From: Cytobacillus oceanisediminis
GTDB taxonomy: Bacteria > Bacillota > Bacilli > Bacillales > Cytobacillaceae
DNA length: 64,000 nt
Assembly (NCBI RefSeq): GCF_004366035.1
Contig: NZ_SOEE01000002.1
Coordinates: forward strand, 310,001 to 374,000
Direction of reading: 5' to 3'
In this document: positions 33,275-35,654 of the stretch, piece by piece
Numbering within the stretch: position 1 is the first letter of the stretch
How the letters are laid out: every line of letters starts with the position of its first letter
The notes under the pieces: model-generated
What the model saw: only the letters and a program-made list of their open reading frames with translations
What the model was told of the DNA's origin: nothing
Databases searched by the model: none
Position numbers and translations under genes: made by a program

Positions 33275-33351
33275 TCACTTTCCTCCTTCCGTTTTTCCCC
33301 CTTATCTTTCCAAGAATAGGCGCTGTTATTCCAATTTCTTTTATCTGTAAA

Positions 33352-33386
33352 CAAAAAAAAGGAGCATGGCATTTAGCCTGCTCCCC
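33352..33386 (-). terminator. Terminator of yidC2
   Basis: On the minus strand GGAGCAGGC pairs with GCCaTGCTCC (one bulged base), followed by T8. Confidence 0.85.
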
Positions 33387-33392
33387 ATGTGA

Positions 33393-34181
33393 TTATGACT
33401 CTGACATGAACTGCACGGTATCAGATTTATCTTTTGTATATAACCTTCTGCTAAGCCATGATTGAAAAACTAAAAATATTCCGCCCGCAGTCCAATATAG
33501 CGGCAAAGCGGCAGGGGCATTTAAAGAAACCAGCATAATCATTACAGGAGACAATAAACCAATCAATTTCATTTGCTTTGGCGTTTGCGCAGTCATATTA
33601 GTTAAAGTGAACCGGTACTGAAGATAGTACACAATTCCTGCAATTATAGTGATCCAAATATCAGAATGACCAAGATTGAACCAGAGAAACGAATGTGCAG
33701 CAATTTCCTGATTCCCTCTTATGGCATAATAGAACCCCATCAGAATGGGCATTTGAATAAAGATTGGCAGACATCCCGCAGCATTCAAAGGATTTACTCC
33801 ATGAGATTGATACAAACCGAACATTTCCTGCTGCAGCTTTTGCTGCTCCTGCGGTTTTTTCGCTGTTTTCAGCTTTTGCTGGATTTTATCAAGTTCAGGT
33901 TTTAACTTATCCATTTTTTCCTTCATTAAGCTTTGATTTTTATATTGTTTCAGCATTAATGGCATCAGTATCAGCCTTATCATTAAGGTAATGAAGATAA
34001 TGGCCAAGCCGAAATTGCCATGAAAGAAAACGGCGGTTCCGTGAATTGCCCATGCAAACGGATCGACAAAATAATGGTGGAAAAAGCCTGTTCCTTGACC
34101 TCCTTGAGCCTGACAGGCGGTTAAGAATATTGGCATTACAGTAATTATGATAATGGTTAATAACAGTTTAATTTTTCTCAT
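33393..34181 (-). CDS. yidC2: YidC2-type membrane protein insertase
   Basis: The 262-residue Oxa1/YidC/Alb3 insertase folds membrane proteins with or without SecYEG. A signal peptide ends at lipobox LTAC (Cys23). Five membrane segments follow, with the basic cytoplasmic loop MKEKMDKLKPELDKIQQKL, the conserved NPLNAAGCLPIFIQMPILMGFYYAI and the end PLYWTAGGIFLVFQSW. The ATG at 34181 is chosen over a TTG three codons earlier that touches the ribosome site. That ribosome site (GGGAGG) is paired in a hairpin next to an upstream MifM-like frame. This is the layout of the inducible YidC2 (YqjG), not of SpoIIIJ. Confidence 0.93.
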   Translation of the reverse strand: MRKIKLLLTIIIITVMPIFLTACQAQGGQGTGFFHHYFVDPFAWAIHGTAVFFHGNFGLAIIFITLMIRLILMPLMLKQYKNQSLMKEKMDKLKPELDKIQQKLKTAKKPQEQQKLQQEMFGLYQSHGVNPLNAAGCLPIFIQMPILMGFYYAIRGNQEIAAHSFLWFNLGHSDIWITIIAGIVYYLQYRFTLTNMTAQTPKQMKLIGLLSPVMIMLVSLNAPAALPLYWTAGGIFLVFQSWLSRRLYTKDKSDTVQFMSES

Positions 34182-34184
34182 ATA

Positions 34185-34229
34185 GGTCAAACCTCCCGCT
34201 TTATTTTTTCTTCAAATAGGGGAGAGACC
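34185..34229 (-). promoter_or_regulatory. Hairpin that sequesters the yidC2 ribosome site
   Basis: GGTC-TCTCCC pairs with GGGAGG-ttt-GACC on the minus strand, hiding GGGAGG, the only ribosome site of yidC2. The 5' arm lies inside the last codons of the MifM-like frame. A ribosome stalled there would free the site. Confidence 0.72.
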
Positions 34230-34493
34230 TTCAGGCTCATCACTTTGTTCGCCTTTTTTTAGTATAAGTTTGGCAATCCAGGACTGAATCGAATCGCAAA
34301 TAAAGCCCCGATCCATGCGGAACCCTGAAAGGCTTTCATATTCTCTTTGTTCTTTCTCAATATATCTGGTACTGTATAAAGTCGTCTCTATTTTCCAAAT
34401 GATTAACAGCTTTGCAGCTAAACCAATGATATATGTTAAATAAAGAGTATATTCTGATGAAATAAAAGACGATTCAGTTATTAATTCAAAGAT
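34212..34493 (-). CDS. mifM: MifM-like regulatory arrest peptide, 93 codons, non-canonical start
   Basis: The frame directly upstream of yidC2 has no stop for 93 codons. It reads IFELITESSF, one membrane segment (YTLYLTYIIGLAAKLLIIW, 15-33), a charged helix (YIEKEQREYESL), then IQSWIAKLILKKGEQSDEPEG and three final residues. B. subtilis MifM has the same plan: 95 aa, one N-terminal membrane segment, and a C-terminal arrest region with IxTWIRK followed by an acidic DEED cluster. Its stalling opens the yidC2 hairpin when insertase is limiting. No ATG, GTG or TTG is in frame; GAGGTGA lies 6 bases before ATC (34493-34491). A TTG nearby is out of frame. Confidence 0.75.
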   Translation of the reverse strand: MFELITESSFISSEYTLYLTYIIGLAAKLLIIWKIETTLYSTRYIEKEQREYESLSGFRMDRGFICDSIQSWIAKLILKKGEQSDEPEGLSPI

Positions 34494-34520
34494 ATTATTT
34501 CACCTCTATTCACAGATTTA

Positions 34521-34549
34521 AGTATAATTGAATGCCGCATTGAAAACAA
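34521..34549 (-). promoter_or_regulatory. Promoter of the mifM-yidC2 transcript
   Basis: TTGTTT and TATACT are separated by exactly 17 bases on the minus strand, just upstream of the leader frame. Confidence 0.6.
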
Positions 34550-34718
34550 TTGCAGATGTAAACCAATTGCAAAAAAGTTATCGTTTGTTCATTCTATTGT
34601 ACCTATGCAGGAATATAATAGGAGAAAGTATATATAATATCGACTTTAGTATGATACACTCTATCAGGGAGATTAATTAATCATTATCTCTAGTTCAATA
34701 CATGAATGGTGGGGTATT

Positions 34719-35654
34719 TTGTCTTTGTTAAAACAAAAACCAATTATAACGCTTGCCAAACTCCTAGTACCCTTATTCATTTTGCTGTTTGTCATGGTGG
34801 AGGCAAAAGGGATATTCAATGATTTTAATTGGGCTCTCCTTGAGCTTTATGTTGACCGGCTAACCTTCCGAAGGCTATTTTTTATCCTTTTATTGGGACT
34901 GGCTGCACTTTTTCCAATGTATTTTTATGATGAAATACTCCAAAGGCTTTTCAGAATTAGAGTGCCTAAAAAAAAGCTGTTATTTTATTCTTTATCTGCC
35001 AACGCATTCTCTAACTTCATCGGATTTGGGGGCGTGGCCGGAGCTACACTCAGGTCCTATTTTTATAAGGATTACCTGACTGGCAATACTCCGTATATCA
35101 AAGTAATTGCCAAGCTGTCGCTATTTTACCTAACAGGCTTGTCCATATTGTCATGGATCGTCCTTTTTACAGATTTACATTTATACGATGATGTTAAACT
35201 TATAAAGATTGCAGTCTGGGCCGTTGCGGCTTATACACCTCTGCTGCTGGGCCTTTACTTTTTTAAGTCGTCTTTTTGGAATACGAAACACATCAAAAAA
35301 GGATTTGCAGGGGAATTGCTGGCTGTTTCTTTATCGGAGTGGCTATTTATTATTATATGTATCTGGGGAATAGCCCGGGCCCTTGATGTATCGATTTCAT
35401 TTTTTGTTCTATTTCCCATTGTCATCATTTCAGCTTGCGCTGGCATTGCGAGTATGATCCCTGGAGGCATTGGATCCTTTGATTTTGTATTTTTAATCGG
35501 ACTGGAATCACAAGGTGTTCCCACCGAATTGGGGCTCTTGATTCTAATGTTCTACCGTCTCAGCTATTATGTAGTTCCTGTGTTTATCGGCACGCCGTTT
35601 GTCATGAACCAGTTATGGAATAACAGAATACCGAAAAACAGCTTCAAAATATAA
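34719..35654 (+). CDS. MprF-like flippase-domain membrane protein (UPF0104)
   Basis: A membrane protein of 311 residues with about eight helices, matching the N-terminal flippase part of lysyl-phosphatidylglycerol synthase. The family signature SANAFSNFIGFGGVAGATLRSYFY lies at about 91-114, and IASMIPGGIGSFDFVFLIGL at about 242-261. The aminoacyl-transferase half of MprF is absent, so it cannot make lysyl-PG alone. A lipid-flipping role is an inference. The start is TTG after GGTGGGG. Confidence 0.85.
   Translation: MSLLKQKPIITLAKLLVPLFILLFVMVEAKGIFNDFNWALLELYVDRLTFRRLFFILLLGLAALFPMYFYDEILQRLFRIRVPKKKLLFYSLSANAFSNFIGFGGVAGATLRSYFYKDYLTGNTPYIKVIAKLSLFYLTGLSILSWIVLFTDLHLYDDVKLIKIAVWAVAAYTPLLLGLYFFKSSFWNTKHIKKGFAGELLAVSLSEWLFIIICIWGIARALDVSISFFVLFPIVIISACAGIASMIPGGIGSFDFVFLIGLESQGVPTELGLLILMFYRLSYYVVPVFIGTPFVMNQLWNNRIPKNSFKI

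Follow-up and report, generated by a model that had tools for sequence, protein, structure and literature searches.

A conserved MifM-like leader of yidC2 in Cytobacillus oceanisediminis that most likely starts at an ATC codon

In Cytobacillus oceanisediminis, the gene yidC2 is directly preceded by an open frame that the initial annotation read as a MifM-type nascent-chain sensor with no canonical start codon, which raises the questions of whether this frame is a true leader and, if so, where its translation begins. We addressed them in the window, that is, the whole 64,000-nucleotide stretch of DNA analysed, and in related genomes. The gene yidC2 (33393–34181, minus strand) has an ATG start and encodes a membrane protein insertase of 262 aa, which matched PF02096 at 7.9e-43 and TIGR03592 at 1.5e-50. 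It is one of the two YidC genes of the host genome, the second being located elsewhere (G000:C5).

Anatomy and conservation of the leader frame

The leader frame occupies positions 34212–34493 of the minus strand, from an ATC at 34493–34491 to a TGA at 34214–34212, and comprises 93 codons plus the stop; yidC2 starts 31 nt past that stop. An in-frame TGA (34502–34500), formed by the last three bases of the putative Shine-Dalgarno sequence GAGGTGA (34500–34506, minus strand), lies just 5′ of the leader, so the frame cannot start further upstream. Hydropathy analysis revealed one hydrophobic segment at about residues 15–35 (best 19-residue mean 1.72, at 17–35), from which a membrane segment was predicted at approximately codons 16–34 (34392–34448, minus strand); dN over codons 2–34 was 0.034. 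Close to the C-terminus lie IQSWIAKL and SDEPEG; an arrest region is predicted at codons 68–88 (S I QS W I AKLILKKGEQS D E P E; 34230–34292, minus strand), supported by profile-profile alignment with the MifM leaders of genus g68. The 93-codon frame, its single hydrophobic segment and both C-terminal motifs were thus confirmed, whereas the earlier count of three residues after the acidic cluster has to be corrected, as five (GLSPI) follow E88. Searches of Pfam and NCBIfam assigned no family to the leader, and no RNA family matched the region 33300–35000 up to an E-value of 1.

Upstream of the leader, a promoter-like pair (34521–34549, minus strand) consists of TTGTTT (34549–34544) and TATACT (34526–34521) separated by 17 nt. 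It fell below the threshold of our consensus scan and is absent from the list of that scan, yet the 17-spaced promoter proposed earlier gains support from relatives: TTGnnn-N17-TATACT was found at 15/15 loci of the clade to which the window belongs, and TTGnnn-N17-TATAAT at all ten of the ATG-start Cytobacillus loci checked. Near 34541, an ATG that is out of frame with the leader was rejected as a start, as it lies within the promoter spacer and would be untranscribed if the promoter is right. A divergent gene with multiple membrane spans, represented by a 311-codon frame (34719–35654, plus strand), begins about 170 bases from this promoter.

Homologues of the leader were detected by homology search in 25 of 36 genomes of the genus, by profile A1 in 167 of 193 genomes of the family, and by profile A2 in 69 of 397 genomes drawn from the order. 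Eight Cytobacillus genomes gave no match to profile A1, of which five have a single YidC; in the other three (G015, G016 and G023) yidC2 is present and preceded by leaders of another subtype (L265, L266 and L267), which end in RRKESPDDSDE or KRKEAPDDSDE and were missed by the profile. The clade of the window comprises 15 genomes, including C. oceanisediminis 2691, C. firmus and Sporosarcina globispora DSM 4. Selection was analysed at 13 of these 15 loci, L016 and L017 being left out. The results showed that the leader has a dN/dS of 0.29 overall, with 0.20 for codons 2–34, 0.41 for codons 35–67 and 0.12 for codons 68–93, the part containing the predicted arrest region. The membrane half is therefore kept as protein. 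Homologues across genus and family together with purifying selection indicate that the frame is more than a chance open frame, and the conservation that the initial annotation had proposed to look for, both of the frame among relatives and at the codon level, was found.

Some leader copies deviate from this pattern. In G003 (L017 / L033) the leader is split into two overlapping frames with the break at approximately codons 45–54 while yidC2 is intact, which may be an error or a case in which the sensor was lost naturally. The leader of G024 has a shifted tail. In C. firmus AMY 5.1.1 (L014 / L071) the tail is frame-shifted, giving 183 codons that run beyond the start of yidC2 in a frame other than that of the gene.

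The start codon

The aligned start column of the 15 clade loci contains ATC at 14 and ATT at one, whereas the other, more distant Cytobacillus leaders have ATG at this position, which is the start position of the family. At every clade locus GAGGTGA precedes the start codon with a constant spacing of 9 nt, measured from the end of the aligned GGAGG. In the codon table of 13 rows, ATC was found in 13/13 rows and leader conservation begins at this codon, while the two codons between the Shine-Dalgarno sequence and ATC vary (AAT AAT, ACT GAC, ACT TAC, ATG GGC and ATT GTC). Over codons 1–12, dS was 0.034, about a tenth of the 0.41–0.42 in yidC2 (in which the row of L006 covers 21 codons); dN/dS of these codons alone was 2.2 because dS is almost zero there. 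The variable preceding codons, the invariant ATC and the low dS of codons 1–12 argue that ATC is a start rather than an ordinary isoleucine codon. A YidC2 tree of 29 rows explains the ATC/ATT group of 15 by one change with a support of 100/100, so the group has a single origin, after which the codon was kept. These data uphold the earlier choice of ATC as the best-placed codon after GAGGTGA, and we consider initiation at ATC 34493–34491 most likely on the basis of sequence comparison.

At L014 and L017, two of the 15 loci, an additional ATG lies two codons ahead of ATC; at a spacing of 3 nt from the Shine-Dalgarno sequence, it looks too close for use. An out-of-frame GTG mini-frame overlapping ATC was discarded as well, as it has three codons in L010 and is absent in L016.

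The low dS of 0.034 over codons 1–12 might alternatively be due to RNA folding that controls initiation on the leader, and not to the start context itself, and in the window the leader Shine-Dalgarno sequence can indeed pair with codons 10–13. This pairing did not go beyond that of random synonymous recodings at 13 loci (fraction at least as paired, 0.06–0.77), predicted folds differ between clade members, and the fold of the window has a z of only −0.90, which leaves this explanation with a small probability. Slightly less probable still is a start at an in-frame ATG, codon 60 (34314–34316, minus strand), whose presence contradicts the earlier statement that no ATG, GTG or TTG lies in frame. 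This ATG occurs in 13/13 rows of the codon table, and it would give a 34-residue peptide lacking the membrane segment and stalling constitutively, much as arrest is constitutive for MifM residues 35–95, from which the membrane segment is missing (PMC6037786). As codon 60 comes after the membrane segment, it cannot explain the protein-level selection on the membrane half (dN/dS 0.20 over codons 2–34); moreover, no strong Shine-Dalgarno sequence precedes it and L016 lacks it, whereas ATC has the Shine-Dalgarno sequence and the spacing of the family.

A similarly slim chance attaches to a decaying leader, which would have lost its start and its control over yidC2 in this clade. The broken copy in G003 and the shifted one in G024 are what such decay would produce, yet the dN/dS of 0.29, and of 0.12 in the arrest region, was obtained among 13 members that already share ATC, and the Shine-Dalgarno sequence, the promoter and the hairpin described below have been kept. 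Finally, a sequencing or assembly error concealing a true ATG, or a small indel hiding the start, would be conceivable from one genome by itself, but has a negligible probability given ATC in 14/15 clade genomes, including isolates of C. oceanisediminis, C. firmus and Sporosarcina globispora; the shared ATC also makes the resequencing of the start region suggested earlier unnecessary.

Hairpin and proposed mechanism

Between the leader and yidC2, a hairpin (34184–34230, minus strand; −15.6 kcal/mol) has its 5′ arm in the last leader codons and its 3′ arm over the yidC2 ribosome site, the Shine-Dalgarno sequence GGGAGG (34192–34197, minus strand) lying within the 3′ arm. Taken alone, the hairpin of the window is not significant (z −1.11; 27 of 200 shuffles were as stable), and its support comes from recurrence in relatives across genera rather than from the window fold itself. 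The yidC2 Shine-Dalgarno sequence pairs with the last 12 leader codons at 176 of 192 loci, compared with 2244 of 3840 shuffled arms, the shuffles keeping base composition only; the remaining 16 loci show no pairing to the leader end. The mean z of the hairpin was −2.5 over 71 loci and −1.9 over 11 clade loci. Both the 192- and the 71-locus sets leave out loci with a long gap or without a yidC2 start call, and the latter holds at most two loci per genus plus the clade without L006 and L014. Covariation in the clade (alignment A4, 13 rows, one of them with ATT) was uninformative, the arms being nearly invariant. The hairpin reported earlier at 34185–34229 is thus present with marginally different limits and recurs in relatives, although it does not stand out from shuffled sequence in the window alone; it is predicted to mask the yidC2 Shine-Dalgarno sequence. 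In L006 (G006), the hairpin, the ribosome site and the first yidC2 codons are doubled in tandem, and an intact 262-codon yidC2 follows the second copy.

Taking these lines together, we propose, with a probability of about 0.82, that 34493–34212 is a conserved MifM-like leader of yidC2, most likely starting at ATC, on which the ribosome is predicted to stall near codons 85–89 when the membrane segment is not inserted, opening a hairpin able to occlude the ribosome site of yidC2. In this model, initiation at ATC would be rare and the leader would carry few ribosomes. Insertion of the membrane segment by YidC would leave yidC2 shut after a short stall; failed insertion would lead to a lasting stall at the acidic cluster, and a ribosome halted at codons 85–88 would cover the 5′ arm, leaving the hairpin open and yidC2 on. 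ATC would keep the translation of the sensor itself low. A weak start of this kind may keep basal yidC2 expression low and ribosome queues few, while a stall of long duration would be enough to open the hairpin. Put simply, the open fraction would be kT/(1+kT), where k is the initiation rate and T the stall lifetime, so that a smaller k would give a larger fold induction. What appeared to be a missing start may be regarded as a design idea, namely an arrest sensor with deliberately poor initiation, which would bear on the ways in which leaders of this type escape leak and ribosome queues.

Weak starts are also found beyond the clade. Of the 167 family genomes matched by profile A1, 149 were surveyed for leader starts under a rule preferring ATG, GTG or TTG at 5–11 nt over other codons; four of the other 18 (G128, G134, G139 and G140) were inspected separately. 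The survey gave TTG in 75, ATG in 50, ATC in 14, GTG in three, ATT in one, ATA in one and no start call in five, and the leader of G003 was frame-broken. In G051, ATA is the only well-placed start, and its 93 codons contain no ATG, GTG or TTG. Among the leaders of the other subtype, ATG is the start in G015 and G016, while that of G023 has an ATA 8 nt past AGGAGG, again the sole well-placed start, and its first canonical codon, a TTG, at codon 28. The leader of genus g24 has TTG in 58/60 cases and the adjoining yidC2 has ATG in 59/60; this yidC2 control admits only ATG, GTG and TTG by design and left 10 of 209 loci without a call. Some other genera show a leader ATG and a yidC2 TTG. A further 61 order-level loci, read by eye without a tally, yielded no clear further non-canonical start. 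Weak leader starts are therefore frequent in parts of the family, with ATC, ATT and ATA as the extreme, and several genera have ATG.

These observations led us to a speculative extension, which we regard as possible but rather doubtful: start codons subject to rejection by IF3 may have arisen repeatedly among YidC-monitoring leaders (ATC/ATT in the Cytobacillus oceanisediminis-firmus group, ATA in G051 and G023). Induction of yidC2 would then respond to two inputs, with the stall reporting failed insertion and the start codon reporting how stringent initiation is (IF3, initiator tRNA, growth state).

The ATC start is probably what keeps this leader out of gene catalogues. When the window leader was used as a query against a catalogue of 5.8 billion proteins, a search that needs shared 5-residue words and similar protein length, three relatives were retrieved: P0006, of 96 aa with an extra upstream ATG, and two shortened forms of the leader, P0018 (77 aa, begun at the TTG of codon 17) and P0019 (69 aa). 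A large survey of YidC-monitoring leaders began from annotated GFF genes (PMC10987492), and annotation-based surveys have a blind spot for sensors with non-canonical starts. On the speculative reading given above, arrest sensors that gene finders overlook on account of their start codons may be widespread.

Comparison with MifM and other systems

To place the leader among known sensors, profiles and motifs were compared. The leaders of genus g68, which read as ATG starts, match the MifM chain of PDB entry 3j9w at 3e-28. Profile A2 detected these g68 leaders with E-values of 4e-5 to 6e-5, and hhalign aligned A2 with them over 30 C-terminal columns at a probability of 91.7 (E-value 7.9e-7 for the single pair); for A1 the probability was 73.5. 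When the PDB was searched directly with the leader, A1 and A2, MifM was missed and the only matches were weak ones to unrelated molecules. By these comparisons the predicted arrest region is homologous to MifM at the profile level. Against the published arrest motif RIxxWIxxxxxMNxxxxDEED (PMC7897499), the leader has the same spacing and keeps I, W, I, D and E, with E for the last D, and has S, K, K and P in place of R, M, N and one E. The distance from the end of the hydrophobic segment at about residues 34–35 to the acidic cluster at 85–88 is approximately 50 residues by hydropathy, which agrees with the reported median distance of about 54 residues between membrane segment and arrest site (PMC10987492). 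The reading as a MifM-type sensor put forward in the initial annotation is thus supported by the position next to yidC2, the second YidC, the hydrophobic segment, the profile-level arrest region and the recurrent hairpin, even though direct PDB searches missed MifM.

In B. subtilis, MifM (YqzJ) is the leader of yidC2 (yqjG) and has 95 codons with a predicted membrane segment at codons 10–34, arrest mainly at 89–92 and a stem-loop over the yidC2 Shine-Dalgarno sequence (PMC6037786). The leader described here shares with it the position before yidC2, a length of about 93–95 codons, the N-terminal membrane segment, the I/W/I/acidic spacing, the hairpin over the yidC2 Shine-Dalgarno sequence and the presence of a second YidC, and differs from it in low sequence similarity, in the replacement of R, M, N and one acidic residue, and in the ATC start. 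We found no report of a MifM with an ATC start in the open-access texts available to us, supplements aside. What is known is MifM-type sensing; the new aspect is that a predicted YidC-monitoring arrest leader probably initiates at a non-canonical codon. The arrest motifs of CliM (Clostridia) and ApcA (actinomycetes) are other than that of MifM, and the CliM paper states no sequence similarity of CliM to MifM (PMC13183943, PMC10987492, PMC7897499).

With regard to initiation, the leader shares a trait of genes whose starts are discriminated by IF3, that is, a conserved codon other than ATG, GTG or TTG behind a strong Shine-Dalgarno sequence. By our reading of the sequence, infC of the host genome itself appears to start with ATT behind GGAGGTG. 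For S. aureus in poor medium, expression from AUU and AUA starts was about 10% of that from AUG, AUC not being among the codons measured in the parts of that report available to us (PMC13009471). The gene infC, and in S. aureus ccpN, cvfC1 and citZ, have, like the leader, a strong Shine-Dalgarno sequence followed by a conserved non-AUG start of the AUN kind, but these genes encode ordinary proteins with AUU or AUA starts (PMC13009471), whereas the frame upstream of yidC2 would be a ribosome-arrest leader starting with ATC.
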